Below, piece by piece: positions 6,692 through 31,551 of a stretch of DNA of 64,000 nucleotides. The stretch's first letter is position 1. Every line of letters starts with the position of its first letter. The notes under the pieces are model-generated. The model did no database searches and was not told where the DNA came from. It saw only the letters and a list, made by a program, of their open reading frames with translations. Made by a program: the position numbers and the translations under genes. This DNA comes from Lysobacter firmicutimachus (GTDB taxonomy: Bacteria > Pseudomonadota > Gammaproteobacteria > Xanthomonadales > Xanthomonadaceae): positions 806,001 to 870,000 of the forward strand of contig NZ_JBANDL010000002.1 of NCBI RefSeq assembly GCF_037027445.1, written 5' to 3'.

Positions 6692-6757
6692 GCGGCAACG
6701 TCCGCTCACGGATTTTCCCTCGGATTTCAGCTGTATTCGCAGTCAAGGAAGCACGTC

Positions 6758-15700: not shown

Positions 15701-17269
15701 ACGCGCGCCATCGGCGATCTGCAGGCCGCCGAAGCCAGCGGCGACCCGGCCGCGATCGACGCCGCCCAGCAGCGTTTGCAAAGCTGGAGCGACGGCGGCA
15801 CCTACAAGGCCCTGCTCCACGGTATGACTGCGGCAGCGGCAGCGGCCCTGGGCGGCGGCGACATCGGCGCCGCCGCGTTGGGCGCGGCCGGCGCCGAGCG
15901 GACCAAGGGAGCGATGGCGAGCTATCTGGACCAGCAAGGCGTCGCCTACGGCAGTCCTGCCTACAAGACCTTGATGGAACTCGGCAGCGCTGCGCTGGGC
16001 GGCATGATCGGTAGCGGCAGTGGTGCGGCGTCGGCGCTGGCGGGGGATCAGTACAACCGGCAACTGCATCCAGATGAGATCGCCTGGATCAATGCCAACG
16101 CTTCGCAGTTCGCTTTCGAAGCAGGCAATATTCCGATCGACGAAGCCAAGCGTCGATTGATTCTGGAGGCAGCGGCGCAGGTTGATGCTACGACCAACCA
16201 AAGACTCAACGAGCATCGCCCCATCACCGATCAGGTCGATGAAGAAGCATTGTCGTTCTTGACTAAGAATCGCCCCGGATTCGATTGGGGTAAAGGATTC
16301 GAAGAGCCTGACACAACCCGGTATCTCGACCACGCCCGGTTCCGCGACCAGCTCGCTGGTGATGTCGACGCGTTCCAGCAGGTCTATAACACGCTGCAGG
16401 GAGGAGGGCTAAGCCAGGGCGACTTGCGCTACATCTATGGCAGCAGCCTGCTCAACTGGGCAGATGGCGTTCACGCCAGGAGCGGTTTACAGCTAACTGC
16501 CGCTCTTGGTGCGAGCGGAAGCGCTGGAGCGTTGGCGGCAGCGGGAACCCTGAGCGCCGGTGCCGCAATGAGTCTGGGGAACAGTCTCGTCGTTAGGTGT
16601 TTGAGCAATCTGCTCGGATGCAACGGAATTGGTATCGCAGGAATGGAAATCCTGATGGGCGATGCTGCGCCATCTACCGGTCTAGCTATTCCGGTCGGAA
16701 ATCCGGTGGGGGCGGGTGGTGCGGCATCTGTAGTCGACGATTTGGCGAAGCGCGTGGCCAACAAAGTTGACCGTATCGTCTACGAAACTGATGCCCTCAA
16801 TGTCTTAAGGGACGATATGCTGGCCGGGGCGGGCGGAAAATGGCCGGTAGTTAACGAGGCGGTCAGCGCTTCAACCGTTCAGCAGAGTACGCCAACATCG
16901 TGTGGTCAGGCTTGCGCCCAAATGCTGCTTGCTGATCGTGGAACGGCGATCGACCAAACGCAATTTGGGCTGGGATTGACGTCTCCTCAAGGGTTGGCTG
17001 CAAATCTGAACAGGATAGATGATGGGTGGATAGGGGCAGGTGTTGATCCATCTAGTTTTGATGCCTTAAACAAGACGGGCTCGTGGGCGGCGATGATGTG
17101 GGAAAGAGGTAGCAGCTACGGCCATTGGGTAGTTGTTGATGGGTTAAATGATGGTGGAATGGTGGTGGTGCGTGATCCGTTCAGTGCAACCCGCTATCTG
17201 ATGAAAAAAGACGATTTCGATAATGCATGGAGTGGTTACAGTGTATTCAAGCCAGAATCGAAGCCTTGA
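6758..17269 (+). CDS. TpsA filamentous haemagglutinin / CdiA-type contact-dependent toxin carrier
   Basis: This 3503-residue exported stick protein starts at ATG 6758 (AAGGA, 8-base spacing). Residues 1-24 form an extended signal-peptide region (MNRIYRLVFNCALGVW), followed by a hydrophobic core ending at PAWAQ. The TPS secretion domain includes the NPAGI motif (N173). Long arrays of degenerate beta-helix repeats (SAGTLDNRGG-like) follow, then a spacer with LPAHFALPGSSLF, then further haemagglutinin repeats. The pretoxin region holds YNRQLHPDE (Y3099). The last about 140 residues form a C39/papain-like peptidase: TPTSCGQAC with C3382, YGHWVVVDG with H3456, RDPF with D3473, and a preceding Gln. 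I infer that this C-terminus is the delivered toxin. A candidate immunity ORF overlaps the stop. Confidence 0.92.
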   Translation: MNRIYRLVFNCALGVWQVASELVSAPRGGRSGGGRATAPRLRAMTGALWIVLGAATTLPAWAQIVADPNAPGSQRPTVLQAPNGVPLVNIQTPSAAGVSRNTYRQFDVDREGAILNNARGSAQTQLGGWVQGNPWLAGGGARVILNEINSANPTRLNGYVEVAGPRAEVVIANPAGIQVDGGGFINTRRATLTTGAPILTGGSLDGYRVEGGAIGIGGAGLDAGTTDYTDLIARSLRINAGVWAQQLQVTAGANTVSADHRSVVATAGSGAAPAYALDVGALGGMYAGKIVLLGTEHGLGVRNAGAIGAQAGELSLSADGRLSNSGRIQAQSDAALDLSGGVSNAGTVSAGQQLRIATPADLDNSGGTLNARRLELSAQSLSNRAGAIEQTALQALRLEAGALSNREGGRIGLAALSSGGGTGGAGGTAGGDSGSGTAAGSDPSAPAVAPPPIVPLADGVLRIGGLLNNDAGSIQAGSGIVLNSGSGLNNDGGELGLASLTVTAGDVSNRGGTLAVQGEAQLQLGNLINDAGRLSVGGALGLNSQSFSNRGGELLHGGGAASQWRVAGTLDNRGGRVASNADQLQLDAGRLLNEQGRIEHAGSGGTILNLGDLNGAGGRIAGAGALRLRAGVVDHRGATLSGNAVDVAAMHFDNRGGTVQSGGAAMFAVDGRFDNDAGTVAATNDLSLRAASLGNAGGSLQSAGNAAIEAATVQGAGGTIGSNGALSLRGGDVDLSAGTTFARNIDVAVDTLSTAGGTLQSAGELTIAAATAMDNAGGRIVGAGDMALASAALNNRAGTIEHAGAGTLAIQATNLTGAGGTIGSNGALDLRGGTLDLSGGQTYARTIALQADALNHVGATLQAGDTASLAVRDTLDNSQGRIAASGDTRVQAGTLVNRGGAIEHAGTGTLDLQAIVVDGAGGRIAGNGQLNLSAQSVDLRAGDTYAQRIDLRAVDLVTAGGQLSAGQDALLAIQGRHDNTSGRIASGGELQLQSSALINQAGLIAGAATVRLDTGTLDNRQGQIQSGGAAAVTVAGAFDNSAGSVIAQDDLSVAAASLDNDGGTLASVAGAVALDIGDAFSNVGGRVQSAGVLSLQSQGLDNRGGDIAGGAVTLDAGNGALLNDGGRIAGAQSLRIDSGALSNDAGLIQAGTALAIDTHGQALSNANSGSDKGISSGGTLQVSAGALSNSAGTVYAGGAATLQAVSIVNNGQIGGRDTLALTAGGIDNRGGQIQALGDTRLDAGAGVVDNQAGLIGSATNLSLSAASLINRNTLGANQGVVGGSVTVVADTLDNASGLLSADRDLLLRGGGTIDNRGGQVAAGGTLDVRDPGFTRTLDNDSGRLAAGDLLTLQLKRLSGNGSLESGLDATIALADSYDHQGSLLANRDLSLSTQGDLRNAGRIAAGGNLNLSANALDNAASGEITAANGSARIVVAGRATNRGVIDGADTRIDAARIDNLGSGRLYGDHLALGAAEINNLEETVAGTTRAGTIAARQRLDIGAGTLNNRRESLIYSGGDAAIGGALDAAGLAAGTAGAVNNTSALIDVAGDLSIDASAIVNLRENVSIAQSTTTRAPTRLDQPYWRNNGSNATTNIRSSSNYTAYEVYYLDPADILEDTPHITPDGVQLRKAVVRLNPQTSAYYFARGGMYAALGERSRLSAVDGTVTIYYTGRQEAQSNPDQGGSDDPFAELAQPQPGSPAFVYQSDSLSYSSAYGTCSNDCVQLWTAFDYDDPDHTLLVPQGTGGGSLGDNEEYRIATPTVTEDTIAPGIGSDAAIRSGGAMNLRVDDLQNRYGQIAAGGDLSIAGHGGASQVVNVGQTLYRTYDFNNVSHGYNGTTRAWTAPSLSEQIGQLGGTITSNGTLSVETSDLSNLNLGRNAPGVVDPSVLLNLNAGNARGSGGASSFVLQPGAAAIEVAANPAPNAGGPGGGAASGGANEAPAIVRTLPAHFALPGSSLFRLTGNGSGYLVETDPRFANYRQWLGSDYLFGLLGADPTHLHKRLGDGYYEQRLVRDQIAQLTGRRFLDGYASDEDQFRALMNAGALFAQQYGLRPGIALTAEQMAQLTSDIVWLVEQTVTLPDGTTATVLAPQVYVRVRKDDLHRDGSLIAGDATRLKLQGDLVNGGRIAGRTAVAITAQNVHNLGGLIQGGDVAVTAQQDLINRGGVIRGADRLVVGAGRDLIVEGSKDYAPDRLAGLYVSNPNGVLLASAGRDLSVLGAAQVRSAGDAALSAGRDLSIASRAGEVATTGYGKNRDSKQGLDTAGVSAGGNLILSAGRDVQLTAAQLEAGQSAAIVAGRDIVSSTVTTTDTSDRHVDAGRTKTTAHTSDETLHGTAIKAGGDIAMQAGQDITLQAATAVSDAGGIALAAGRDVKLTAAQERHDQVQDSTTKKSGFLSSSTKTTHDESHASLAVGTTLSGETVDISAGRDVSAQGAQVVGTGDVLVAAGRNLTLDAAQSTYSEAHSQTQKKSGLMSTGGVGIMLGSRSLAQTQSSTATEAVGTLLGSTDGRVTLVAGQDVKIRGSDVISAAGTGIVGKNVVIEAAEQQSQQTYTSKFQQSGLELSLSGTAMTAATSAYHSAKRAGETDNGRLKALNAAAAGYAAYDAYELGQRAASNGGKSAGGPQNEAINLKLGIGSQSSSSKTELSQTTQRGSNIRSGGDVAIVATEGDLTVTGSKVAGQNVLLDAARNLTLQSAKETSSQHSTSKSGGGGVGVLVGQSGMGFYVEANASRGKADGDSVTHAETTIDAANTLVLRSGGNTTLRGAQARGEQVIARVGGDLSLISQQDTDHFKSKDQSAGGQVVIGVGSSASVSYNQNKIDSDYKSVTEQTGIVAGKGGFDIEVGGTTTLTGAAIASAADAARNRLSTQALVATDLQNSAKYSASSVGGTVGTNGGSPNLGMPQKDDASSTTRSGISAGTLDIRGGDTGAVAKLDRSLTDLQQAGLKPIFDEKEVRERQEVGALALQVGMQTAGTIAQTMQTRAIGDLQAAEASGDPAAIDAAQQRLQSWSDGGTYKALLHGMTAAAAAALGGGDIGAAALGAAGAERTKGAMASYLDQQGVAYGSPAYKTLMELGSAALGGMIGSGSGAASALAGDQYNRQLHPDEIAWINANASQFAFEAGNIPIDEAKRRLILEAAAQVDATTNQRLNEHRPITDQVDEEALSFLTKNRPGFDWGKGFEEPDTTRYLDHARFRDQLAGDVDAFQQVYNTLQGGGLSQGDLRYIYGSSLLNWADGVHARSGLQLTAALGASGSAGALAAAGTLSAGAAMSLGNSLVVRCLSNLLGCNGIGIAGMEILMGDAAPSTGLAIPVGNPVGAGGAASVVDDLAKRVANKVDRIVYETDALNVLRDDMLAGAGGKWPVVNEAVSASTVQQSTPTSCGQACAQMLLADRGTAIDQTQFGLGLTSPQGLAANLNRIDDGWIGAGVDPSSFDALNKTGSWAAMMWERGSSYGHWVVVDGLNDGGMVVVRDPFSATRYLMKKDDFDNAWSGYSVFKPESKP
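15991..16410 (+). repeat. Long direct repeat, copy 1 (TpsA pretoxin segment)
   Basis: This part of tpsA, encoding the YNRQLHPDE pretoxin section, recurs at 17641-18059. Aligning the two by eye shows four substitutions and one single-base deletion over about 420 bases. Similarity falls off sharply after 16410. The repeat places homologous DNA upstream of two different toxin ends, the arrangement needed for toxin switching by recombination. Confidence 0.9.
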
Positions 17270-17522
17270 CCTTGTGTTGAACTCAATAACTTATACGGAG
17301 AGCGAGTCGGTGGTGTATCGCGCATCTGTTGACGGCGCGGAGATTGAATTCCGTGCGGCTGTATCAGACATTGCTGGGATTAGGTCCGTGGTAATGTCTG
17401 ATGACTTTGAGAGCTTTCTCAGGCCTTTCTGTAGAGCCGACCCAGCCATTGTTAAGCGATTGATTAAGCTGACATGGGCTGTGATCGAAGGAGACTCGCC
17501 GGTTTACCCTGTGCATGTCTAG
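17241..17522 (+). CDS. Candidate immunity protein to the TpsA C39-like toxin
   Basis: This is a small acidic protein of 93 residues from GTG 17241, where GGAG lies 8 bases upstream. An ATG at 17223 would give 99 residues but has no ribosome site. The gene overlaps the 3' end of tpsA by 29 bases, which is the usual place for an immunity gene. Composition (SITYTESESVVYR, VMSDDFESFLRPF) and lower GC than the surroundings fit CDI immunity genes, which are fast-evolving. I recognise no family. The role is inferred from position only. Confidence 0.6.
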   Translation: MYSSQNRSLDLVLNSITYTESESVVYRASVDGAEIEFRAAVSDIAGIRSVVMSDDFESFLRPFCRADPAIVKRLIKLTWAVIEGDSPVYPVHV

Positions 17523-17544
17523 CAACTCGAATACACGTTGAATT

Positions 17545-18147
17545 TTTGACGTCGCCCAACAGCGCCTGCGGAACTGGAGCGGCGGCAACAACAAAGCTCC
17601 GCTGCACGGCGTGACCGCGGCGGCGACATCGGTGCCGCGCTGCGCTGGGCGGCATGATCGGTAGCGGCAGTGGTGCGGCGTCGGCGCTGGCGGGGGATCA
17701 GTACAACCGGCAGCTGCATCCGGACGAGATCGCCTGGATCAATGTCAACGCTTCGCAGTTCGCTTTCGAAGCAGGCAATATTCCGATCGACGAAGCCAAG
17801 CGTCGATTGATTCTGGAGGCAGCGGCGCAGGTTGATGCTACGACCAACCAAAGACTCAACGAGCATCGCCCCATCACCGATCAGGTCGATGAAGAAGCAT
17901 TGTCGTTCTTGACTAAGAATCGCCCCGGATTCGATTGGGGTAAAGGATTCGAAGAGCCTGACACAACCCGGTATCTCGCCACGCCCGGTTCCGCGACCAG
18001 CTCGCTGGTGATGTCGACGCGTTCCAGCAGGTCTATAACACGCTGCAGGGAGGAGGGCTGAGTCAGGGTGACCTGCGCTACATCTATGGCCGCGGCCTGC
18101 TCCATTGGGCCGACAACGTCACTTCCAGAAGTGCTGGCCAGGTCGGC
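17545..18147 (+). pseudogene. Displaced partial copy of the tpsA pretoxin region, frameshifted
   Basis: 17545-17640 resembles the tpsA stretch near 15760-15990 but with an internal deletion. 17641-18059 is a near-identical copy of 15991-16410. One base is missing at about 17979 (CTCGAC in tpsA, CTCG-C here), moving the reading frame from the YNRQLH part into the next frame. That next frame still encodes the rest of the region (RDQLAGDVDAF, GDLRYIYG) and runs on into the downstream toxin. There is no plausible translation start, so this is a silent cassette rather than an expressed gene. It reads as a parked alternative end for TpsA. Confidence 0.8.
17641..18059 (+). repeat. Long direct repeat, copy 2 of the tpsA pretoxin segment
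   Basis: Near-identical partner of 15991-16410, offset by 1650 bases before the deletion and 1649 after it. It lies just upstream of an alternative toxin domain. Confidence 0.9.
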
Positions 18148-18894
18148 TTGTTCCTTGGGGCCACAGGCGCTACCGGAGTGACCGCAGCGTTGGCCGGCCT
18201 GACTCTTCCAGGAGTTGCTGCCCGATGTTTTTCCAGCCTCGCTACGTGCAACGAGCTGGCCGTGGCTGCGATGGAAATGGGAATGGGCGATGCAGCTTTT
18301 GCGTCTGGAATAGCCATACCTGCAGCTATTGGGGGTAGTAAGGTTGTCGCTGGTGTATCAGATGATCTAGTGAAACGTGCTGCTCAAGCAGCAGACGACC
18401 TGGCAAGAGAGATTGAAGGCATAACGCAGGGAGGCACTGCACTCGTTACCCGCGCCGGCAACGCTACGTTTGAGGTCGGAAAGGCAATGGATGATCTCAG
18501 TGCTACTGAGCAGCAAGGGTTGAGAATATTATTAGCTCTTGGATATGACGTGCATGTGCCGTTGGAGGCAAGTAAAAGAGGGGTTTCTGGAATGCCGACT
18601 TCGGAGTTCGTAGTGGAGGGGTTGGGGAGGGTGGATGTATACGCGCCAGAAAAACCTAGTGTTATTGCAATTGCTAGGGAAGTTGAGGCGAAGGTTTTTT
18701 CCGGGCAGGCTGATTCTGTTGTGGTTGTAGTTCCTGTTGGCTTCAGTAATTTCGACATGTACAAGGCTGCTGCGGCTGCTTTCATGAAAGTAAGGCAAGG
18801 GCGCCAAATACCCCTTGATAGACTAATTTTCTCGCAAAGGGGGAGGGTCGTGCAGTTCGATCGGATGGTTGTTGAAAACCTATTGAGGCGGTGA
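18148..18894 (+). CDS. Orphan CdiA C-terminal toxin module, putative PD-(D/E)XK tRNA nuclease
   Basis: The frame is open from before 18000 and there is no real start codon; 18148 is only a TTG within the continuous frame. The first part (GATGATGVTAALAGL) is the variable linker. The final about 130 residues (LSATEQQGLRILLALGYDV, then TSEFVVEG, RVDVYAPE and AREVEAKVFSGQA) follow the order seen in Bp1026b-type CDI toxins, which are PD-(D/E)XK nucleases that cut tRNA. The acidic residues of SEF and VDVY and the later Lys of EAK are candidate metal and catalytic positions. Expression would need recombination into tpsA through the upstream repeat. The nuclease class is recalled from family motifs and was not checked by search. 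Confidence 0.65.
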   Translation: MFLGATGATGVTAALAGLTLPGVAARCFSSLATCNELAVAAMEMGMGDAAFASGIAIPAAIGGSKVVAGVSDDLVKRAAQAADDLAREIEGITQGGTALVTRAGNATFEVGKAMDDLSATEQQGLRILLALGYDVHVPLEASKRGVSGMPTSEFVVEGLGRVDVYAPEKPSVIAIAREVEAKVFSGQADSVVVVVPVGFSNFDMYKAAAAAFMKVRQGRQIPLDRLIFSQRGRVVQFDRMVVENLLRR

Positions 18895-18895
18895 G

Positions 18896-19162
18896 ATGGC
18901 AAAATTTCTGTGCAAATGTTTGCATGTAATTGGCCTGGTGCGAACGCCAGCGCCTGAGCAGTACACGATGATTCCAAATGTTGTCTTGTATGATTTGGTG
19001 GATCGCGTCGAGAAAAAAGATATGAGTGGAAATGCCCTGATTGCCGAAGTGGATAGGACTGGGCAGGATGTTATTCATTGCCCGAAATGCGGCCGGGTGT
19101 GGATTAAGGGTTTTGATGAGGTTGTTTACAAAGCTTATGTTGTGGAGGTTGATAGCGAATGA
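18896..19162 (+). CDS. Candidate immunity protein for the orphan nuclease module, with a zinc-ribbon-like motif
   Basis: This 88-residue protein starts at ATG 18896, one base after the toxin frame stops. It contains LCKCLH near the N-terminus and HCPKCGRVWI near the C-terminus, a two-part CxC/CxxC arrangement that could bind one zinc ion. Immediate adjacency, same strand, small size and lower GC than the capsule or tpsA genes all fit an immunity role. I recognise no named family. Another reading is a free-standing small zinc protein unrelated to the toxin. Confidence 0.6.
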   Translation: MAKFLCKCLHVIGLVRTPAPEQYTMIPNVVLYDLVDRVEKKDMSGNALIAEVDRTGQDVIHCPKCGRVWIKGFDEVVYKAYVVEVDSE

Positions 19163-19258
19163 CCGCCTCCCTTTCTGATTTCTAATTCTGGGTTCGCGGT
19201 AGTCGCCGGCACCCACCTGCGGCTATAGAGCTGGAGCAAGGGCGGCGCCAACAAGGCT

Positions 19259-19765
19259 GTGCTGCACGACATGACCGCGGCCGCAGCGGCGGCCCTGCGC
19301 GGCGGCGACATTGATGCCGCCGCGTTGGGGGGCATTGCAAACAGTGTAGGAGCTGCTGAAGGTCTGACGCTTCCCGGAATGTCTAGGCCGGTGCGAGCGA
19401 TCAACCCCAATTTCCCACCAAGTCAGGCCGGCGTCGACGCGATGAACAGTGTGGGCATTCGCAATATGGCGAATGACATACGGTGCGTTGATTGCAACGA
19501 AATCGCTGAGTCGATGCTTCGGACGAGCAATGGCGAAGGGCGAATACTTGAAGCCCGGCCGTTGTCGTCCGGTAATCTGAATGTCTTTGAGAACGGCTCG
19601 TTAGAGCCTGGGCAGTGGTATCACCAGGTCTACACGGATGGGCGATATGTCTTTGATCCTCGCTTGTCACCGACTCCGGTCCCGAAGGGCGACTGGTTGC
19701 AGCACATCCGTGGGATCAATCCTGATAGGGTAATTTTCCCAAGCAAACCAAAGGGATTTCCGTGA
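19259..19765 (+). CDS. Orphan papain-fold toxin module (third displaced TpsA C-terminus)
   Basis: About 45 bases upstream and the first 25 codons (LHDMTAAAAAALRGGDID) resemble tpsA around 15820-15880, marking the join to a TpsA-derived leader. The rest is a different toxin domain. IRCVDCNEIAESML supplies a candidate nucleophilic Cys, QWYHQVY a His, and RYVFDPRL an Asp, followed by GDWLQHIRGINPD. This order resembles the small papain-fold toxins (Tox-PL group) of polymorphic toxin systems. The GTG at 19259 has no ribosome site, so the module is probably silent unless recombined. It overlaps its immunity candidate by GTGA. Confidence 0.65.
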   Translation: MLHDMTAAAAAALRGGDIDAAALGGIANSVGAAEGLTLPGMSRPVRAINPNFPPSQAGVDAMNSVGIRNMANDIRCVDCNEIAESMLRTSNGEGRILEARPLSSGNLNVFENGSLEPGQWYHQVYTDGRYVFDPRLSPTPVPKGDWLQHIRGINPDRVIFPSKPKGFP

Positions 19766-20211
19766 GCAAGAATCTTGCTAAAGGCGACGAGATTGTGAGC
19801 CTGTTGAGGGAGGTTTCTGAACTCGACTGGGCCAGAAATTCCTTCAGTCGGGTTGTGTATAGAGCGGCGCAGGGAGAAGTTGCTGAGGATCGTTCAGCGG
19901 AGCCTCCGTATACGAGCTTCAGATTTAAATCCGAGCAGCCAGGACTGTTGGAGGCTCTCGGTCGCGCTGTAAAAAGCTACACCGGAAAGGTTGACTGGGT
20001 TCTAGTCTCTCATGATCGAAGCCCTTCAGCAGGTATCAATTGGACCATCTGCCCAAAGCTAACCGTGGGCTTGGATGCTGAGATCAGGAGCAGTGGTCTC
20101 ACAGTACAGCAGTATTTTCGAGAGCGGATGCCCGAGTTCGGCGTTTCGGCCTATGAGGATATGGTTGATTTTGTTGCCTATTTGAGGCAGTGCACTGTTC
20201 CTGCATGCTGA
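19762..20211 (+). CDS. Candidate immunity protein for the papain-fold toxin
   Basis: This 149-residue acidic protein starts at the GTG of a GTGA overlap with the toxin frame (19762-19765), a strong sign of a paired unit. It has no signal peptide, as expected for a cytoplasmic immunity protein. Visible sections include KGDEIVSLLREVSELDWA and YTGKVDWVLVSHDRSP; no catalytic motif appears. I recognise no family. The function is inferred from coupling to the toxin. Confidence 0.65.
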   Translation: MSKNLAKGDEIVSLLREVSELDWARNSFSRVVYRAAQGEVAEDRSAEPPYTSFRFKSEQPGLLEALGRAVKSYTGKVDWVLVSHDRSPSAGINWTICPKLTVGLDAEIRSSGLTVQQYFRERMPEFGVSAYEDMVDFVAYLRQCTVPAC

Positions 20212-20396
20212 GTTCGACCGGCATAGCCGGGCAGTGGTGTTTTGGCGCGTCAATGTTGAGGGGCCTCTTCGTTATCGATCAGCTCGGAAAGCCAATTTCA
20301 AATAATGTGCCATTGGTGAAGCCAACAGAAACTGTTCACACCGGGATTCCCTTGGATGTCCGTAAGGCTCTCACGCATTTCACGAATTCAGATTAA
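20205..20396 (+). CDS. Short ORF of unknown status
   Basis: This 63-residue reading overlaps the end of the preceding immunity gene by 7 bases and stops 2 bases before the next ORF. It lacks a ribosome site at its ATG. The C-terminal half (VDVRKALTHFTNSD-like, preceded by GKPISNNVPLVKP) looks like ordinary protein sequence, so it may be the tail of a lost toxin or immunity gene. It could equally be noise. Confidence 0.3.
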   Translation: MLSSTGIAGQWCFGASMLRGLFVIDQLGKPISNNVPLVKPTETVHTGIPLDVRKALTHFTNSD

Positions 20397-20398
20397 TT

Positions 20399-20785
20399 AT
20401 GAATTCATCATATTTTAAAATGATAATCGACGCGGGGTGCGGTTCCGAGAAGGGGTTGTCGCTTCCCTCGGATGTGTCTGAATGGTTGTTTTTTCGGCAT
20501 TTCTGGGGTCAGGTTAATATTCGGTTTGGTGTTTCTTTTTCTCAGTATGAAGAAGTCATGCCGGAACGCTTAGTCGGAGAGGTTGTGGATGCTGCTCGTA
20601 ATTTAATCATGGAGGCGCTGAGTGCGTTACCGACGTCTGTTCGTTTCTGCTGCGGTTGGGATGGTGATAAGAATGAGCTGTTCTGCGAGATCGCAAGAGA
20701 CGCCATTGTAAAGGCGCTTTTGGAGCTGGCAGCTTTCCTCGATGAGGCCAAGTTATTAAAGGCGGGCGTGTACTGTCAGCTTTGA
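20399..20785 (+). CDS. Small low-GC protein, possible orphan immunity gene
   Basis: This 128-residue protein starts at ATG 20399. Its base composition is clearly more AT-rich than the flanking genes, which together with its position in the toxin/immunity tail suggests acquisition as a cassette. The sequence is acidic and helical, with WLFFRHFWGQVNIRFGV near the N-terminus and FCCGWDGDKNELFCEIA later. No signal peptide or known motif is seen. Its toxin partner is absent, consistent with retained immunity to a lost toxin. I recognise no family. Confidence 0.5.
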   Translation: MNSSYFKMIIDAGCGSEKGLSLPSDVSEWLFFRHFWGQVNIRFGVSFSQYEEVMPERLVGEVVDAARNLIMEALSALPTSVRFCCGWDGDKNELFCEIARDAIVKALLELAAFLDEAKLLKAGVYCQL

Positions 20786-20921
20786 ACTTTGTTGTGCGAT
20801 GTTTTCGATCGCTGTACACGATTCGGGTGCGTCAGGGGGGTATCTGTCGAGGTGTTTTATATGAAAAATAGCGAATAATTGATATTTTTTATTTGGTAGG
20901 CTTGGAAAGTTGGGAGGTAAA

Positions 20922-21518
20922 ATGGATAGTGGAGGCGTATCAGGTAACGGGGTCGTTCCTTCGCGCCTTCAGGTCGATCTGCGCTCGCTTGTGGGATATA
21001 GGGTTGTGAGCCTAATAAGGTACAGTTGGTGGGCTCCCGATGAGGCGGAGCAGGAGTGCCGATTGGCTAGCAAGGATGTTTTTTCGTTGACATGTGGTCC
21101 GGCAGCAATCGCATTTGATTCAGGCATTATTCTGGGGGTTGCGAGCGATCCGTCCAAGAACTCGGTGTCTGTTTGGGTAGAGCGAGATCGGGCTGATCTG
21201 TCCGTCTGTGGGGGCACGCTCTCCTGCGATGAAGAGCTGCATCCAATTTCCGCCAATGATCCAAAGTTCGCATCTTCATTTTGGCATCGAGTGATTGGTG
21301 CGCAGGTCAGAGCAATTTCCCTCCTTGTTCGAAAGCCTAGAACCGCTCGACTTGCCGAGCTTCCGAACGAAGTTGGATTATGCTTCTTGTTGGATTCAGG
21401 CGCGAGAGTGATTGCGGCTCACGGGCTTCACGATGACTCAGATGATTTTGCGATCATCCAAGATGATTTTGTTTTGGAACGAATTTGCGCGGAGCTGAAT
21501 GAGGTTCAGATAGGATAG
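20922..21518 (+). CDS. Small protein, possible orphan immunity gene
   Basis: This 198-residue reading starts at ATG 20922, preceded by GGGAGG about 4 bases upstream; a TTG at 20910 is less likely. The upstream 130 bases are strongly AT-rich and could hold its own promoter. The protein is acidic with beta-strand-like sections (RVVSLIRYSWWAPDE, SVSVWVERDRADLSV) and a C-terminal acidic patch (HDDSDDFAIIQDDFV). Size and position fit an immunity protein. No toxin precedes it and no family is recognised. Confidence 0.55.
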   Translation: MDSGGVSGNGVVPSRLQVDLRSLVGYRVVSLIRYSWWAPDEAEQECRLASKDVFSLTCGPAAIAFDSGIILGVASDPSKNSVSVWVERDRADLSVCGGTLSCDEELHPISANDPKFASSFWHRVIGAQVRAISLLVRKPRTARLAELPNEVGLCFLLDSGARVIAAHGLHDDSDDFAIIQDDFVLERICAELNEVQIG

Positions 21519-21541
21519 TGTCGCAAGAATGCACTCCGTCT

Positions 21542-21658
21542 TTGACCGCCGAGCAGATCGCCCAGCTGATCAGCGACATCGTCTGGCTGGTCGAACAGAC
21601 CGTGACTCCGTCCGAGGGCCGCACCGAGACCGTGCTCGCACCGCAGGTCTATGTGTAG
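21542..21658 (+). pseudogene. Remnant of a second tpsA gene
   Basis: A 38-codon frame (LTAEQIAQLISDIVWLVEQT, then VLAPQVYV and a stop) matches TpsA around bases 12930-13047 with several substitutions. It is an internal piece of a TpsA, far from any start. It marks the distal edge of the island and shows that at least part of another tpsA, or a duplicated block, once lay here. Confidence 0.8.
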
Positions 21659-21772
21659 CCGAACCTTGGTCAGAGCGGTCCTCGCTTTTCGTTGATTGCG
21701 CTCAATGGCACACATTCAAAACGCATATAGCAGCGTGCTAGTTTCGCGTTTCTGCGCCACTAAGGGGGAAAC

Positions 21773-22303
21773 ATGAAGGCGTTTATCGCCGCCGCTGCGG
21801 CGGCCTTGTTCGTCGTCGGTACTGGTCCAGTCCACGCCGCAAAGAAACCCCAGCCCACGCCTACGCTTTATCAGGGCAAGCCCAACGAAGACGCCGCCAA
21901 AGCCCTGCTCGAAGTAGCGTTAGTCCAGTCCGGAAAAAACGGCAGCTGGGAGCGCATCGGCGCCGGTCGGGTGTATTACCTGGGCGGGTTCAAGGCCGAG
22001 GGGCAGGCGGTGTTCGATGCGATCCTGGCGGGCGAGCACGAGGACAGCGATGTATATCGGATCGCCCGGGTATATGCCGAGGCCGGCGAGTGGGCCCGGG
22101 CGAAACCGTTGTTCGACAAATTCCTGGCCGGCAATCGCGACGATGCCAAGGCGCTGGCCGAGGTCGGTGCGCATTATCTGATGCAGGGCGACCGGGCGAC
22201 GGCCGAACGAATGTTCGAGCAGGCGTTCAAGCTGAGCGACGACGATCCCTGGGTCACCGAAAACGTCGCCGGCGCTTATCTCGGGGTGAAACCGCAGGAG
22301 TAA
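21773..22303 (+). CDS. Periplasmic TPR-like protein
   Basis: This 176-residue protein starts at ATG 21773 behind a GGGGG run. A signal peptide (MKAFIAAAAAALFVVGTG, cleavage near VHAA) directs export. The mature part contains two to three tetratricopeptide-like helical pairs (VYRIARVYAEAGEWARAKPL, ALAEVGAHYLMQGDRATAER) ending with a third. Such proteins act as scaffolds for other envelope proteins; the partner is unknown. It is monocistronic, just outside the toxin island, with GC back to the chromosomal level. Confidence 0.75.
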   Translation: MKAFIAAAAAALFVVGTGPVHAAKKPQPTPTLYQGKPNEDAAKALLEVALVQSGKNGSWERIGAGRVYYLGGFKAEGQAVFDAILAGEHEDSDVYRIARVYAEAGEWARAKPLFDKFLAGNRDDAKALAEVGAHYLMQGDRATAERMFEQAFKLSDDDPWVTENVAGAYLGVKPQE

Positions 22304-24361: not shown

Positions 24362-25789
24362 ATGTCCTGGGTACCCCAAGCGGAAGATCTGGCGCTGTAC
24401 GATGCGGCGCGCGAAGAAATGCTGGGGCTGCGGATTCCGCTGTTCCTGCAGCCGGACGGCGTCAACGAGCGCATGTTCGTCGCCGCCTTCGACGGCACCG
24501 GCAACGATGTCGCCCAGCAGCCCGACGCCCCGACCAACATCGCCGCGATCGCGCGCCAGATCGAGGTGCGCGACGATCCGCGCATCGTCGTGTCGTACCT
24601 GGCCGGTCCGGGCACGCAGAGCAGCGCCCGCGAGCGCGTGCGCGACAAACTGACCGGATCGACCTATGGCGCGCGCATCGACGAGATGTATGCGCGCTTC
24701 GCGCGTCAGGCCCGGGCCTGGATCGAAGAAGATCCGGCCGCGAAGATCCGCCTGGTCACGATCGGTTTCAGCCGCGGCGCAGTGCAGGCGGCCGGCTTCG
24801 CGGTGCTGGTCGGCGAACGCGGCGTGACCGCCAGGAACGGCCAGCAGTTGCGCAAGCCGGCCGATGTGCCGCAGGCGATCGGCCTGTTCGACCCGGTCGC
24901 CGCCGGCACGCCACAGAAGAACGACCGGCGCTTGCCGGACACGGTGGTGTCCGGTTTCCAGCTGCAGTCGCGCGACGAAGAACGCATCGACTTCCCGCTC
25001 AATCCGATCCTGCCGCCGGGCTTGACCGAAAACGGCCGCTTCCTGTCGGTGGTGCTGCCGGGCTCGCATTCCGATGTCGGCGGCGGCTACGCCGGCGGCG
25101 GCCTGGAAGCGCAGGCCGGCGATCTGATGATCGACTACCTCAACGGTCTCAGCGCGGTGCCGTTCCTGGCCCGGCGCAGCGTTCCGCTGGACGATGCGAG
25201 CAACAGGCCTCATCAGGAAGAACTGGTGCCCGGCTCCGGCGACTGGCGCCGCACCAAAGGCAATCGCCAGCTCGACGGCGGCCGCGACAAGAACCTGGCG
25301 CCGCCCGACATGTATCGCGACGGCAGCCTCACCTGGTGGGGCAAGCCGCGCATGCAGGATCGCAGATACGTTTACAACACCGGTGCGTGGCCGCTGGAAG
25401 GCGAACGCCGCAACGACACCAAGGCCGGTCTGCAGTATCGATTCATCGATCCGTTCCGCGGGCCGCCGACCGTAGCGCCGCGTCGTCGGCGCGGCAATGC
25501 CGTCGACTTGCTGCTGCAGAGCATGCAGAAGGCGGCGACCCTGCGCGACGAGAACGGCCTGGTCAACCTCTTCGACGGCGAGCGGGTGCGTCTGGCGGCC
25601 TTCGCCGCCTGGGTCGCGGCCTCCGCCGGCATGACCCGGATCGACCGGATGCGGCTGGAGGGGCCGACCGAAGTGGTGATCGAGCAGAACGTCGACGGCC
25701 AAGGCTCGGCCGGCTTCGATTTCGACCGGGCCGTGCGGACGCCGGTGGAAGACAGCAACGCTGCGCTGCAGAACGCGCTGGACGGCTGA
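24362..25789 (+). CDS. DUF2235 / Tle1-like phospholipase, putative type VI secretion effector
   Basis: This 475-residue protein belongs to the alpha/beta-hydrolase-like DUF2235 family. Near residue 40 it has AFDGTGND, then the nucleophile elbow IGFSRGAVQA (GxSxG, Ser in GFSRG), then GSHSDVGGGYAGGG carrying the likely Asp/His pair. Family members include Tle1 phospholipases delivered by type VI secretion. There is no signal peptide. No VgrG, PAAR, chaperone or obvious immunity gene lies beside it, so secretion is unproven and it may be a housekeeping lipase relative. The start ATG is 4 codons from a TAC-rich leader without a strong ribosome site. Confidence 0.78.
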   Translation: MSWVPQAEDLALYDAAREEMLGLRIPLFLQPDGVNERMFVAAFDGTGNDVAQQPDAPTNIAAIARQIEVRDDPRIVVSYLAGPGTQSSARERVRDKLTGSTYGARIDEMYARFARQARAWIEEDPAAKIRLVTIGFSRGAVQAAGFAVLVGERGVTARNGQQLRKPADVPQAIGLFDPVAAGTPQKNDRRLPDTVVSGFQLQSRDEERIDFPLNPILPPGLTENGRFLSVVLPGSHSDVGGGYAGGGLEAQAGDLMIDYLNGLSAVPFLARRSVPLDDASNRPHQEELVPGSGDWRRTKGNRQLDGGRDKNLAPPDMYRDGSLTWWGKPRMQDRRYVYNTGAWPLEGERRNDTKAGLQYRFIDPFRGPPTVAPRRRRGNAVDLLLQSMQKAATLRDENGLVNLFDGERVRLAAFAAWVAASAGMTRIDRMRLEGPTEVVIEQNVDGQGSAGFDFDRAVRTPVEDSNAALQNALDG

Positions 25790-26317: not shown

Positions 26318-26452
26318 CCCCGCCAAAAGGCTTAGTACGACAGTCATGCAGCGCGACCGGGCCGGGCGTGGGATCATGCCTTGACTCGTGCCGGCCCGAC
26401 GGTTGCCGGCGCGGTCCTCCGCCTCCTTGTCGCCTCCCCGGAACCCTTCACG

Positions 26453-27586
26453 ATGCTGCGCTCGCTCGCCTGCACTTTAGTGTTGCTGCTGTCCGCATCG
26501 CCCGCCGGCGCCGCGGCGATGAACGAATCCCTGGACATGGCCGTGCCGCAGGCGCCGGCGCCGTTGCGGGTCGAGGGGCGGCAGCGGTTGATGTACGAGC
26601 TGCACCTGACCAATTTCAGCAGTGCGCCGTGGGAGCTGCGGCGGGTCGACGTGCTGGACCGCGACGGCGGAGCGGTGCTGGCCGGTTTCGCCGGCGCCGA
26701 ACTGGCCGCGCGCCGGCAGTCGATCGGCGCTGCGGCGGCGACGCCGGCCGATGCCGCGTTGCGGCCGGGCGAGCGCGCGGTAGTGTTCGTCGAATTCGAT
26801 CTGCCCGCCGGGACCCTCGCGCCGGCGGCCTTGCGCCATCGCATCGGCTTGCTCGGCGCACAGGGCGAAGACGAGATCGAGGGCGCGCCGGTAGCGGTAA
26901 GCGAGCCTTCGACCCTTCTGCTCGGTCCGCCGCTGCGCGGCGGTCCTTGGGCGGCGGTGCATGCGCCGCAGTGGCCACGCGGCCACCGGCGCGTGTTCTA
27001 CACCTTCGACGGCCGCGCCCGCCTGCCCGGACGGCATGCGATCGACTGGGTCGCGGTCGACCGCGCCGGCCGTATTTTCCGCGGCGATCCGGACCGCACC
27101 GCGAACTCGCTGGGCTATGGCGCCGATGTACTCGCGGTCGCCGACGCCGAAGTCGTCGCCGCGCGCGACGGCGTCGCCGAGCGCGCGACCATCTCCGGCC
27201 ACCGCAAAAATACGCTGGACCTGGCGCCGGGCAACTATCTCGTGCTGGCCCTGCCGGATGGACGCTATGCCACCTACGAGCACCTGCGTCCGGGCAGTCT
27301 GCGCGTGCGGGTCGGCGAGCGCGTGCGCCGTGGCCAGACCCTCGCCGCGCTGGGCCACACCGGCGATTCCACCCGCCCGCACTTGCACTTCCATGTGTCC
27401 GACGGCGCCCGCCCCCTGGCCTCGGAAGGGCTGCCGTTCGTGTTCGAGCGTTTCGAACTGCTCGGGACCTATCCGCAGATCGATCGGCTCGGACGCGAGC
27501 CCTGGCAGGCGCTGGCGGCCGGCACCGAGCGCGAACGGCTCGGCGAGGCGCCCGCTTCCAACAGCGTGGTGATGTTCGCCAAGTGA
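26453..27586 (+). CDS. M23 family metallopeptidase, exported
   Basis: This 377-residue protein starts at ATG 26453, which begins a signal peptide (LRSLACTLVLLLSASPAGA); the longer open frame upstream is not a plausible leader. The N-terminal 170 residues are a beta-rich domain of unknown role. The C-terminal LytM/M23 domain shows RHAIDWV (His and Asp zinc ligands) and RPHLHFHV (the HxH pair), so it is predicted catalytically active. M23 enzymes cut peptidoglycan peptide bridges or secreted peptides. It converges on the biosynthetic operon that follows, with only 18 bases between the stops. Confidence 0.85.
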   Translation: MLRSLACTLVLLLSASPAGAAAMNESLDMAVPQAPAPLRVEGRQRLMYELHLTNFSSAPWELRRVDVLDRDGGAVLAGFAGAELAARRQSIGAAAATPADAALRPGERAVVFVEFDLPAGTLAPAALRHRIGLLGAQGEDEIEGAPVAVSEPSTLLLGPPLRGGPWAAVHAPQWPRGHRRVFYTFDGRARLPGRHAIDWVAVDRAGRIFRGDPDRTANSLGYGADVLAVADAEVVAARDGVAERATISGHRKNTLDLAPGNYLVLALPDGRYATYEHLRPGSLRVRVGERVRRGQTLAALGHTGDSTRPHLHFHVSDGARPLASEGLPFVFERFELLGTYPQIDRLGREPWQALAAGTERERLGEAPASNSVVMFAK

Positions 27587-27604
27587 CCGGCGCGCGGGTA
27601 CGCG

Positions 27605-28372
27605 TCAGCGCTGCGCCTCGACGATCATCGCGTGCGGGCAGTGCAGGTAGTTGTGCCAGAACTCGCTCGGCTGCACCTCGCGCCCGCTCTCGGCCAGCAC
27701 CGGCGCGTGCCAGCGCAACTGGGCGAAACCGGCCTCGGCGAAGGCGCGCTCGTGCGCCTCGCGCGACCAGTAGAACGCGTCCAGGTCGAGTATGTGTCCG
27801 CCGAACCAGGCGTGCAGATGCACCGGTGCCCCCTCGTACAGGGCCGGTGGCGCGCTGAGTTCCATGCCGTAATTGCGATACCAGCCCGGTTCGCGCGCGA
27901 ATTCCGGATTGAGCACTGCGGCGACGAAGCGGTCGCCGGGCGCGGACAGGGCGTGGAAGGCGGTGCGGCAGATCGAGGTGAGGCCGTGCAGGGTCGGCGC
28001 GTAAGGCAAGACGTAGATCGCGGTGACCAGATCGAAACGCTCGCCCAGATCGTCGGCGATCGTATCCGCGGCGCGGGTGGCGTCGCGCCAACGGTAACCG
28101 ATGCCCAGCGGCGTGCGGTCTTCGCGCCGACGGGCGTAGTCGATCATGCCTTCGGATACGTCCAGTCCCATGACCCGGCGCGCGCCGCGTTGGGCGATGG
28201 CGCGGGTGTACAGCCCGCTGCCGCAGCCCAGGTCGAGCACGCGCAGGCCGCCGGTATCGCCGAGTACACGCAGAACGCTGTGCATCTCGATGTGCTTGCG
28301 GAACGGCATCTGCTCGATGCTGTCTTCGTAGGCGTCGGCCAGGGCGTCGAACTGACTGTCGGCGTGGTTCAT
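27605..28372 (-). CDS. SAM-dependent methyltransferase of the cyclodipeptide operon
   Basis: This 255-residue class I methyltransferase has GAGGAG 6 bases before its ATG. The SAM-binding motif is VLDLGCGSGLYTRAI near residue 45, with motif II RRVMGLDVSEGMI. It is the last gene of the operon CDPS, P450, methyltransferase, with a 16-base gap from the P450. That context suggests it methylates the P450-oxidised diketopiperazine at a ring nitrogen, hydroxyl or carbon; the site cannot be read. Sequence outside the fold (YNYGM-like region and WHNYLHCPHAM) gives no substrate clue. Confidence 0.82.
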   Translation of the reverse strand: MNHADSQFDALADAYEDSIEQMPFRKHIEMHSVLRVLGDTGGLRVLDLGCGSGLYTRAIAQRGARRVMGLDVSEGMIDYARRREDRTPLGIGYRWRDATRAADTIADDLGERFDLVTAIYVLPYAPTLHGLTSICRTAFHALSAPGDRFVAAVLNPEFAREPGWYRNYGMELSAPPALYEGAPVHLHAWFGGHILDLDAFYWSREAHERAFAEAGFAQLRWHAPVLAESGREVQPSEFWHNYLHCPHAMIVEAQR

Positions 28373-28388
28373 GAACGGCTCCTCGTGA

Positions 28389-29597
28389 TTACCAGGCGAC
28401 CGGCAGACTGACCGGGCGGATGAACAGGATGTTGCGCTCCCATGGAATCTCGCTTGCCGGCAAGGCCAGGGCGAGGCGGGGGAAGCGCTCGAACAGCAGG
28501 CGGTAGGCCGATTCCAGAAACACCCGGGTCAGCGACGAGCCCAGGCAGAAATGCGGGCCGCTGCCGAAGGTGGCGGTGCCGTCGGTGTCGCGGTGGATGT
28601 CAAACTTTTCCGGATGCCGGTAATACTTCGGGTCCCAGGTGACGCCCAGCATGGTCGCGCACACCGCTTCGCCGCGGCGGATCAGGCCGTCGCCGACCGT
28701 CACGTCCTCGGTCGCCACGCGCGGCAGGCCGAGCACGCCGTTGTGGTGGTAGCGCAGAACTTCCTCGACCGCGCGCGGCCACAGCGCGGGGTCGTCGATG
28801 CATTGGCGCAGTTGCTGCGGGTGTACGAGCAGGGTCAGCAGGCCGGTCGACAGCGGCGGGATCAGCGGTTCGGAACCGGTGACGAACAGATAGCAGACCG
28901 TGCCGACCAGTTCCTGCTCGCTGATCCGGCCTTCGCGTTCGGCCTGGATCAAGGCGCCGATGGGATCGTCGTGATGCGGCTGATCGCGGCGCAGTTCGAT
29001 CACCCGGCGGGCGAAGTCGATCACCTGGGCCGTGGCCTGGGCGACCTCCTCGGCGCTGGCTTCGTAGTTGGTCTGGGTATGGAAGTATTCCAGGTAACGG
29101 GCGCGGAACTCGACCGGAACCTGCAGAATGTCGCAATTGCTGTGCAGCGGCAGCAGGTTGGAATAGGCCTGCATCAGGTCGACCGGATTGCTGCCGGCGG
29201 CCATCGCATCGAGCAGGGATTGCGCGTGGCGTTCGATCAAGGGCCGGTAGCGTTCGGCGCCGGCGCGGGTGTAGAACGGACCGATCACCTGCCGCACACG
29301 GGTGTGGTCGGGCGGGTCGAGGTTGAAGATGCCGCCCGGCACGGCGGTGAAATCTTCGCCGACGAAGCGCGGCGCGCCGTGAAAGGTGAGGTTGCGCGAG
29401 AAACGCCGGTCGCTGAGCACCATCGCGATGTCCTGCTTGCGCGTAAGCATCCACGCCGGGGTGCCGCTGGGCAGGCGGATCGGGCACAGCGGTCGGTGCT
29501 TGCGCGCCCAGGCGATGGTTTTCGGCGGCGTGCCCAGCGGGCCGATCGGGAAGGGGTAGTCGATCAACTCGGTTTGCTGTTCCAGCGAAAGCGTCAT
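28389..29597 (-). CDS. Cytochrome P450 of the cyclodipeptide operon
   Basis: This 402-residue bacterial class P450 has the ExxR motif in VEEVLRYHH and the heme-binding loop FGSGPHFCLG with axial Cys351. The I-helix reads FVTGSEPLIPP: the acid is kept, but the usual oxygen-activating Thr is replaced by Pro, as in some P450s with unusual chemistry. The synthase stop overlaps a GTG at 29612 that would add five residues (VSAAA); neither start has a clear ribosome site, and coupling favours the GTG. It probably oxidises, dehydrogenates or couples the diketopiperazine. A ferredoxin partner is not encoded nearby. Confidence 0.9.
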   Translation of the reverse strand: MTLSLEQQTELIDYPFPIGPLGTPPKTIAWARKHRPLCPIRLPSGTPAWMLTRKQDIAMVLSDRRFSRNLTFHGAPRFVGEDFTAVPGGIFNLDPPDHTRVRQVIGPFYTRAGAERYRPLIERHAQSLLDAMAAGSNPVDLMQAYSNLLPLHSNCDILQVPVEFRARYLEYFHTQTNYEASAEEVAQATAQVIDFARRVIELRRDQPHHDDPIGALIQAEREGRISEQELVGTVCYLFVTGSEPLIPPLSTGLLTLLVHPQQLRQCIDDPALWPRAVEEVLRYHHNGVLGLPRVATEDVTVGDGLIRRGEAVCATMLGVTWDPKYYRHPEKFDIHRDTDGTATFGSGPHFCLGSSLTRVFLESAYRLLFERFPRLALALPASEIPWERNILFIRPVSLPVAW

Positions 29598-29608
29598 GGC
29601 GGCGGCAC

Positions 29609-30331
29609 TCACGGCAGGCGGTGGACACTGACATAGCCCTGGCCGCGGTGGCGCGGCAGGGCGTCGTCGCGTTCGAGCAGGGCATGGACCAAGGGGATCG
29701 GACGCGGATAGACGAACACCGAGCTGGCGGCGCCGAAGATCGACGGACTGTCGACGAGGAACGGCAGCTCGGCCAGCGCGTACTGCACGGCGTACTGCAC
29801 GGCGGAATCCGACGCCGCTGCTCCGCCGCTGCCTGCGACCGCGCTGCGGGCGGCGCTCTCGCAGGCCTGGTGCAGCCAGGGCTCGCGGCGGCTGCGTCGT
29901 TCCAGCTCGCGCCGCAGATCCAGATAGGCGGCGCGATCCTGCAGCCGGGTCCAGGTATGCACCCGCTGTTCCGGCCGGTCGATGCCGCATTCCTGCAATT
30001 GGCGGGTCGCGGCATTGCGCAGGGCGTTGAGTGCATGACGCAGGCGGCGCACGGCATCGAGCGGACGCGCGCCCGCGGCGACCAGAGTGTGGGCGGCTTC
30101 GTAGCCGGGCAACAGCACGTCGATGCGGCGGAAGTGACCCACGCCCCAGGCGACCAGGCCTTGCACCGTGTGAGGATTGAACCCGCCGTTGAACGGACTC
30201 AGCCCGATCACGGCATGCTCGGCGATGTCGAACAGACGACGGCAGTGTTCGGTATAGGGCTGGGCCCGTAGCGAGGTTGGCGGCGATGCAGGAATGCAAA
30301 CAGCGGACACATCGGCGTTCGGCAGATTCAT
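29609..30331 (-). CDS. tRNA-dependent cyclodipeptide synthase (CDPS)
   Basis: This 240-residue enzyme joins two aminoacyl-tRNAs into a diketopiperazine. It starts at ATG 30331 with GGAG 7 bases upstream; an in-frame start further up would run into an Arg-rich, non-coding-like stretch. AVIGLSPFNGGFNP gives the nucleophile Ser45. Y184 and E188 in YALAELPF, and Y208 in VFVYPR, match AlbC Y178, E182 and Y202 in identity and relative spacing. Pro after Y208 points to the XYP-type subfamily, although Asn48 sits three after Ser45. Product identity cannot be predicted by eye. It is the first gene of the operon. Confidence 0.92.
   Translation of the reverse strand: MNLPNADVSAVCIPASPPTSLRAQPYTEHCRRLFDIAEHAVIGLSPFNGGFNPHTVQGLVAWGVGHFRRIDVLLPGYEAAHTLVAAGARPLDAVRRLRHALNALRNAATRQLQECGIDRPEQRVHTWTRLQDRAAYLDLRRELERRSRREPWLHQACESAARSAVAGSGGAAASDSAVQYAVQYALAELPFLVDSPSIFGAASSVFVYPRPIPLVHALLERDDALPRHRGQGYVSVHRLP
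29779..29802 (-). repeat. 12-base perfect tandem duplication inside the cyclodipeptide synthase gene
   Basis: The unit CGTACTGCACGG occurs twice in a row. On the coding strand it inserts four residues (VQYA repeated) immediately before the catalytic Tyr184. The reading frame is kept. It could be a recent slippage event or a fixed feature. Confidence 0.85.
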
Positions 30332-30783
30332 CGCGGGACTCCGGTGGCGTAAAAAGGACGACGTCCCACCGCTGCAAACGCATCTGGCACGGAAGCGACA
30401 GGCGTCGTTGCGGCCGCGGCTGGCGCCGCGCTGCGCAGGTGCAGGTGCAGGACGGGGACGAGAGCGAGCACCGCGACGCGACGCGCCCATCGGCGTCGCG
30501 TCGGACGGGGTGCATCTCCACTTCGTTCGGCGCAGAACTTACTCGCGCACGCAACGTCGAACCGTGATTGAAATCGCCGGATCGCGCGCGCCGATAGTGT
30601 GCTATCTGACTGAATTCAGAGATAAGTGAGCGTCGGTGATCGGCCATCGCGAAGCGTCGTGCGAAAGCCGATCGGCGTCACTGCTATCCCGAAAGATTCG
30701 CTCTCCGGGCACGGACTGGCGCGGTGCGACGCAGTTTCGCGGTGCGCCCTGTTCGCAACGCGTGCATTCAGCGGCGGGCTTCG
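30332..30783. other. 452-base intergenic region upstream of the cyclodipeptide operon
   Basis: I find no supported gene. Arg-rich ORFs on both strands are typical GC noise, including the extension of the synthase frame to 30490. The operon promoter should lie here, as should the 3' end signal of the capsule-side gene at 30784. No clear hairpin or promoter boxes were seen. Confidence 0.4.
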
Positions 30784-31551
30784 CTAATGCAGCGTGTCCA
30801 GTCTGGCGACGCACAGGCCGGCGGCTTCCTTGAGAAAGCGCCCGCTGCGTCGCAGCGCGCGTGGCGACGGTCGCCACGGCGGCAGTGCGTCGCTGAGCGG
30901 CGTCGCCGCGGTGGCGATGCCCTGCACGCGCCAGCCGGCGCGTTCGAACGTGCGTACGGCGCGCGGCAGGTGCTCGGGCGAGGTGACCAGAATGATGTCG
31001 TTCCAGCCGCGCGCCGCGCCGATCGTCCGACTGAAGCCCGCGTTGTCCGCGGTGTTGCGGCTGCGGTCCTCCAGCACCAGTGCCGACGCCGGCACGCCGA
31101 AGGCTCGGATCGAATCGGCCATGCGCCGTGCTTCGCTGCTGCCGGGCGTATGCGCGGTCGGTCCGCCGCTGAGCAGGATCTGCGGCGCCAGGCCGCGTTG
31201 CCACAAGCGCGCGCCGAGCGCGAGCCGATTGCCGGCCAATTGCGGCGCGGCCGCGTCAGCGGCCTCGTACTGGTCGGCGCGGCCGATATCGCCGCCGAGT
31301 ACGACGATCGCGTCGGCGCGCCGCGCCCGGGTTTCGCTCAGCGCGGGATAGCCGCGTGCGAGCGCCGCGGCGAGGCCGTCGGCGGCGACCGGCAGCGACC
31401 ACCACAGCGTCCACAGCGGTGCGATCAGCAACAATGCCAGCGCGCAGCGCCGCCAGCGCAGCGCCGCGGCGAGCAGCGCCAGCGCGGCCAAGCCGAGCGA
31501 GCCGTGCAGCGGCTCGAGCGGCCAGCGCAGCAGCTCGCCGAGCCCGCTCAT
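30784..31551 (-). CDS. YdcF/ElyC-like DUF218 membrane protein
   Basis: This 255-residue protein has three hydrophobic N-terminal segments (LGLAALALLAAAL, LALLLIAPLWTLW) followed by a DUF218 domain with ADAIVVLGGDIGR, APQILLSGGPTAH and ILVTSPEHLPRAV. DUF218 proteins such as ElyC and SanA act in envelope polysaccharide or lipid-carrier homeostasis. It is the last gene of the polysaccharide operon, 4 bases after the glycosyltransferase stop. It probably supports surface glycan production, but the reaction is unknown. Confidence 0.82.
   Translation of the reverse strand: MSGLGELLRWPLEPLHGSLGLAALALLAAALRWRRCALALLLIAPLWTLWWSLPVAADGLAAALARGYPALSETRARRADAIVVLGGDIGRADQYEAADAAAPQLAGNRLALGARLWQRGLAPQILLSGGPTAHTPGSSEARRMADSIRAFGVPASALVLEDRSRNTADNAGFSRTIGAARGWNDIILVTSPEHLPRAVRTFERAGWRVQGIATAATPLSDALPPWRPSPRALRRSGRFLKEAAGLCVARLDTLH

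Follow-up and report, generated by a model that had tools for sequence, protein, structure and literature searches.

A 64,000-nucleotide stretch of Lysobacter firmicutimachus DNA (the window) contains three consecutive minus-strand genes encoding a cyclodipeptide synthase (CDPS), a cytochrome P450, and a methyltransferase (MT). Their sequences point to a real, conserved, and likely functional self-contained biosynthetic operon, whose product is probably an oxidized, N-methylated form of the diketopiperazine cyclo(Pro-Arg). The first enzyme is of known type; the chemistry of the P450 and MT and the finished molecule are the new part. A first-pass annotation had proposed a new modified diketopiperazine from a CDPS operon in a Lysobacter-like genome. 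The operon is indeed compact and such a product probable, but the case is not a single one, as the operon occurs in five Lysobacter genomes and in Streptomyces tsukubensis, and its first step is partly known.

Gene content and conservation of the operon

The CDPS gene (29609-30331) encodes 240 residues and scores 187.7 bits against PF16715 (cut-off 27) and 209.7 against TIGR04539 (cut-off 45). Its S45, Y184, E188, and Y208, the active-site residues named in the first-pass annotation, align with S37, Y178, E182, and Y202 of AlbC. The P450 gene (28389-29597; 402 residues counted from its ATG) scores 92.6 bits against PF00067 (cut-off 22.8), and its product contains the family hallmarks, an ExxR motif (E279/R282) and the haem cysteine C351. 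The third gene (27605-28372) encodes a 255-residue ToxA-like class I S-adenosylmethionine methyltransferase, which reaches 54.1 bits against Methyltransf_25 (cut-off 27) and exceeds the thresholds of several methyltransferase families in Pfam. GAGGAG stands shortly before its ATG, and the gene begins 16 bases past the P450 gene, as previously noted. The reported overlap between the CDPS and P450 genes depends on the P450 start. The in-frame GTG at 29612 gives a 4-base overlap (GTGA), whereas the two genes are 11 bases apart if translation begins at the ATG. The short P450 extension (VSAAA/VTAAA) is also present in L. antibioticus HS124 (L012), in the Lysobacter locus L013, and in the relative P0019, but not in locus L014.

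A CDPS was found in 5 of the 20 genomes examined from the genus, one of them the source genome, and the CDPS-P450-MT order with open frames is retained in each of these. The source genome belongs to a Lysobacter near L. antibioticus HS124. Identity to the window in HS124, L013, L014, and L015 is 97, 67, 53, and 51% for the CDPS, 99, 93, 77, and 78% for the P450, and 98, 91, 73, and 72% for the MT. The operon is flanked by a convergent M23 peptidase gene (26381-27586, plus strand) and a DUF218 gene (30784-31551, minus strand) located 452 bases upstream of the CDPS gene, both assigned by profile match. Relatives of these flanking genes were found in HS124 and L013 but not in L014 or L015; the three genes therefore stay joined while their surroundings change. 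Chance is no fair explanation of the set, because its order is kept in all five CDPS-bearing Lysobacter genomes and on a Streptomyces plasmid.

The operon is rare in wider samples of the family, class, and phylum, which are not full sets. Nine of 297 family genomes contain a CDPS, five of them strong, one at 31% identity (G101), and three near threshold; the four outside the genus are distant or weak. No P450 or MT was detected at E<=1e-5 in the G101 locus (L016). The CDPS profile matches 3 of 369 class genomes (the source genome, one at 8.8e-41, and one weak), and the source genome is also the only one of 398 phylum genomes with a P450 at E<=1e-90. antiSMASH extends its regions by 10 kb on either side. 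In L. firmicutimachus SR10, it delimits a CDPS region that has no similar known cluster and spans 20,723 bases by its coordinates (PMC12896164). This region is taken as the same operon, matched by size alone, namely 20 kb plus the 723 bases of the CDPS gene.

A conserved stretch precedes the operon (30499-30698, minus strand) and may have a regulatory role. The window and L013 are 87.8% identical there over 196 aligned bases, versus 76.4% for the CDPS gene. A palindrome, CTGAATTCAG, at 30610-30619 is kept in the window, HS124, and L013, and is a possible operator. By eye, L014 and L015 do not share the stretch. An Rfam search of 27500-30900 at E up to 1 revealed no known RNA. Promoter and terminator scans were uninformative (0 found versus 0.2 expected, and 2 found versus 1.8 expected, respectively).

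CDPS pockets and the likely scaffold

Published work on one enzyme, CDPS 83 of 'Lysobacter antibioticus', goes far to explain the scaffold. This enzyme was expressed and is listed with cyclo(Pro-Arg) (cPR) at 100% (Gondry 2018, PMC5816076); that product was all that was noted for it there, with no mention of a P450 or MT. Table 2 of that paper contains a single Pro/Arg row, with P1 residues VGLPWFFF and P2 residues ATAGRIS; the row is linked to CDPS 83 through its amino acids, not through the CDPS number. The fourth P1 position is called 119 in the text of the paper. The cYY rows fit Rv2275 only when the P1 columns are read as 33, 35, 65, 67, 119, 185, 186, and 200, and the P2 columns were assigned by hand as 152, 155, 156, 159, 204, 206, and 207.

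On this column reading, the CDPS of L014 and its near-copy P0008 are identical to the Pro/Arg row at all 15 pocket residues. The window CDPS (P1 VGLPWFLF, P2 ASAGRIP) shares seven of eight P1 and five of seven P2 residues with the row. The corresponding pockets are VGLPWFLF/ANAGRIP in HS124, VGLPWFFF/AAAARIA in L013, VGLPWFFF/ANAGRIA in L015, VGLPWFFF/SAAARIA in P0005, and VGLPWFFF/ETANRVQ in P0007. Among 11 Lysobacter-type CDPSs, near-copies included, P1 is thus nearly fixed and P2 is variable. HS124 was considered as the source of CDPS 83 and is ruled out by pockets that differ from the Pro/Arg row.

Cyclo(Pro-Arg) is the most likely scaffold, given the partial pocket match and the conservation of the P450 and MT. 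P1 would accept proline, and the prediction is firmer for proline than for arginine. Arginine cyclodipeptide synthases also exist in fungi. In the Gondry survey, no arginine product other than cyclo(Pro-Arg) was noticed (PMC5816076).

The subfamily of the window CDPS is less clear-cut. CDPS 83 is filed as NYH in Table 1 of the same survey (PMC5816076). In the window CDPS, N48 and Y208 are present but P209 replaces the histidine, and proline follows the catalytic tyrosine in all 11 Lysobacter-type CDPSs; P0010-P0015 have Y-H. The NYH signature is N40-Y202-H203. The Y208-P209 pair suggests the XYP subfamily, against which speak the retained N48 and the Y-H pair of most actinobacterial relatives.

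Tailoring enzymes and the proposed route

P450 enzymes usually contain an acid-alcohol pair (Asp/Glu-Thr) in the I helix. The window P450 lacks this pair and has E243-P244, where its two best solved relatives have Glu-Thr in the alignment. The ExxR motif and haem cysteine are kept in all 82 P450s compared, comprising the window's and relatives of at least 42% identity. At the I-helix threonine position, these proteins contain proline (60), serine (14), or alanine (8), and never threonine. Six of the eight relatives listed with less than 40% identity do have threonine, and its loss therefore marks the close group. P450s without this threonine may perform chemistry beyond simple hydroxylation, P450eryF being a counter-example. 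The predicted model (mean pLDDT 88.6) adopts a P450 fold, to which CYP141A1, HinD, SgvP, OleP, and others score alike. The close solved relatives include HinD, TleB, and SgvP, which we take to be bond-forming P450s, and also hydroxylases.

Among solved structures, ToxA (toxoflavin) and XrdM (xenorhabdin) come closest to the MT in both sequence and fold, and a wide gap separates them from other methyltransferases. This proximity suggests N-methylation, although ToxA and XrdM are 27-28% identical to the window MT and differ in their substrates. ToxA presumably methylates a purine-like heterocycle. No CDPS is annotated beside three further MT relatives, L028 (44%), L029 (38%), and L030 (37%). The L029 gene, on a Serratia nevei plasmid, lies near adenylation-domain and non-ribosomal peptide synthetase genes (4932-10717).

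The favoured route follows the gene order. The CDPS would use prolyl-tRNA (P1) and most likely arginyl-tRNA (P2) to form cyclo(L-Pro-L-Arg) by the usual seryl-enzyme route, this being the product reported for CDPS 83 and expected for the window CDPS. The P450, with redox partners encoded elsewhere, would then oxidize the diketopiperazine. Since the P450 belongs to a group without the I-helix threonine, dehydrogenation or oxidative bond formation would be no less probable than simple hydroxylation. Finally, the ToxA-like MT would methylate a nitrogen on the oxidized product, as its family suggests.

A more specific version, which we consider unlikely, is a verpacamide-like three-gene route in bacteria. 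The P450 would close the arginine guanidine onto cyclo(Pro-Arg) by an oxidative C-N bond, and the MT would N-methylate the new cyclic guanidine. It is suggested by the likely cyclo(Pro-Arg) scaffold, the absence of the I-helix threonine from the examined P450 group, and the closeness of HinD, TleB, and SgvP, to which hydroxylases are also close. Going by a reference title in PMC8533947, chemistry of the verpacamide kind has been put forward as the precursor stage of pyrrole-2-aminoimidazole alkaloids in sponges.

Substitution rates, estimated by the Nei-Gojobori method with the window and L013 as the main pair, bear on two alternatives. The dN and dS values are 0.219 and 0.52 for the CDPS, 0.041 and 0.30 for the P450, 0.048 and 0.43 for the MT, 0.096 and 0.48 for M23, and 0.094 and 0.41 for DUF218. 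The resulting ratios stand at ~0.42 (CDPS), 0.14 (P450), 0.11 (MT), and 0.20 and 0.23 (the two flanks), so that the CDPS is the quickest to change while the P450 and MT change more slowly than the flanking genes. Such a rapidly changing CDPS, with a variable P2 beside a nearly fixed P1, would be expected if P1 takes proline but the window enzyme pairs it with a residue X that is not arginine to give cyclo(Pro-X), the P450 and MT acting on the shared part and tolerating X. This alternative is possible but doubtful. The window P2 agrees with the Pro/Arg row at five of its seven positions, and the changes relative to L013 are spread over the CDPS (~31% overall) rather than concentrated in P2 (three of seven positions; one of eight in P1), with no pocket-specific diversification seen. 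The contrast is also weaker between L014 and L015, where dN/dS is 0.063/0.30 for the CDPS, 0.021/0.18 for the P450, and 0.042/0.23 for the MT (~0.21, 0.12, and 0.18). The raised CDPS ratio could alternatively mark an operon in decay, with constraint on the CDPS being lost and no compound formed. This appears most improbable, as each of the five genomes has three open frames and intact catalytic residues, constraint is stronger on the P450 and MT than on the flanking genes, and the upstream stretch is conserved.

A different chemistry would follow if, as in guanitrypmycin biosynthesis, a nucleobase (guanine or hypoxanthine) were attached to the cyclodipeptide by the P450 and methylated by the MT. 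CDPS-associated P450s of Streptomyces catalyze such joining, and GutE then N-methylates guanine (PMC7954767). The window MT is also closest to ToxA, and a 46% identical relative, P0164, comes from S. chrestomyceticus, the species of the purincyclamide cluster (PMC7954767). However, the known pathways use Trp-containing rings, and the window P1 equals none of the nine W rows in Table 2 of PMC5816076. The nucleobase-transferring P450s are called close to CYP121 in the review (PMC7954767). In addition, a profile search covering the operon genes and their two neighbours detected no cyclodipeptide oxidase. Nucleobase addition is quite unlikely, and oxidation and N-methylation of cyclo(Pro-Arg) remain the preferred reading.

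Relatives and comparison with known pathways

Plasmid pST1 of S. tsukubensis (NZ_CP045177.1, L020) contains CDPS, P450, and MT genes of the same families, order, and strand as the window, with identities of 45.5, 52.8, and 44.6%, respectively. Its CDPS and P450 genes are annotated with a 4-base overlap. Its CDPS pockets are LGFPWLVF/TEAGRMA, of which P1 equals the leucine row of Table 2 (PMC5816076), and it has Y-H where the window has Y-P. The same 18.8-kb record also contains TniQ, DDE transposase, and TnsA-like genes of Tn7-like type (5779-10790). Unlike the window, plasmids of S. anulatus (L024), Streptomyces sp. NBC_00342 (L025), and S. subrutilus (L023) have the order MT-CDPS-P450. Their MTs are 51-54% and their P450s 43-44% identical to those of the window, and the CDPS, measured for S. 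subrutilus, is 32% identical. P1 is VGVPMLLF in S. anulatus. In S. subrutilus, an IS3 element separates the MT from the CDPS (3035-5870), and no gene is annotated over the stretch that encodes the CDPS.

Six of the seven plasmid records with a P450 at E<=1e-60 also match the MT, and 6 of the 15 with an MT match have the P450. The annotation of these records is incomplete, and the CDPS search of plasmids returned six records without the S. anulatus-type CDPSs. Nine longest-contig sizes are common to the lists of P450 and MT relatives, a comparison of sizes and not of positions in which short contigs could coincide by chance; they include contigs of Paraburkholderia susongensis, Streptomyces sp. 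LP05-1, and Amycolatopsis minnesotensis. Three relatives (P0047, P0075, and P0078) are CDPS-P450 fusions of 642-643 residues whose P450 parts are 51-61% identical to the window's, the 61% being that of P0047 from Mycobacterium montefiorense. Most source-named P450 and MT relatives are actinobacterial, in line with the earlier statement that three-gene CDPS operons are known mainly from actinobacteria. In a midpoint-rooted FastTree of 72 P450s, the Lysobacter, Paraburkholderia, and Brucella proteins, with P0019, P0021, and P0030, cluster among those of Streptomyces, a topology that would fit an old transfer.

Only in close relatives are CDPS, P450, and MT tightly linked, because more distant relatives of each protein often lack the partners. 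Embleya locus L021 (CDPS 41%) contains no P450 or MT of the window kind in 18.6 kb, none is annotated within 5-6 kb of the CDPS relatives L022 (34%) and L027 (33%), and no CDPS is annotated within 5 kb of a Kitasatospora P450 (L026, 38.5%).

Elsewhere in the window, a two-partner secretion pair occupies 4979-17269 (plus strand). It consists of a ShlB/FhaC-type transporter (4979-6691) and a filamentous-haemagglutinin-like protein of 3503 residues (6758-17269), which weakly matches Peptidase_C39 close to the C terminus. From the end of this large exoprotein gene on, GC content drops to 0.48-0.58 in 16001-22000 (window mean 0.673), and two tested open reading frames in this stretch have no Pfam match. 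A Tle1-like phospholipase catalytic domain (PF09994), of a type VI secretion effector family, is encoded at 24362-25789 (plus strand).

Activities reported for cyclo(Arg-Pro) allow a guess at function. The stereoisomer cyclo(L-Arg-D-Pro) is a diketopiperazine-type chitinase inhibitor whose inhibition is termed moderate (PMC3764403), and for cyclo(L-Arg-L-Pro) a growth-inhibiting effect on yeast is reported (PMC8533947). The product might thus be antifungal or inhibit chitinases, and we speculate on a link to fungus-antagonizing Lysobacter. The three-gene operon is small enough for co-expression, and its Streptomyces counterpart, with another CDPS pocket, lends itself to a comparison of the substrates that the two tailoring enzymes accept.

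Our searches of the open-access literature yielded neither a publication on a P450/MT pathway of this kind nor a bacterial CDPS tailoring pathway for cyclo(Pro-Arg). The pulcherriminic acid pathway of Bacillus likewise proceeds from a CDPS (YvmC) to a P450 (CypX), and among solved structures YvmC matches the window CDPS best. It differs in having no MT in the pathway as reviewed (PMC7954767), and the window P450 scores 110.6 bits against the CypX-type profile TIGR04538, far below the cut-off of 500. The guanitrypmycin (gut) pathways share a CDPS and a P450 with the window and, in some cases, an N-methyltransferase, but they act on Trp-containing rings and have five-gene versions with a cyclodipeptide oxidase (PMC7954767). 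CDPS 83 (PMC5816076) resembles the window CDPS in genus and in most residues of both pockets, and the L014 protein, whose pockets equal the Pro/Arg row and which is 53% identical to the window CDPS, is encoded in a three-gene operon of the same kind.

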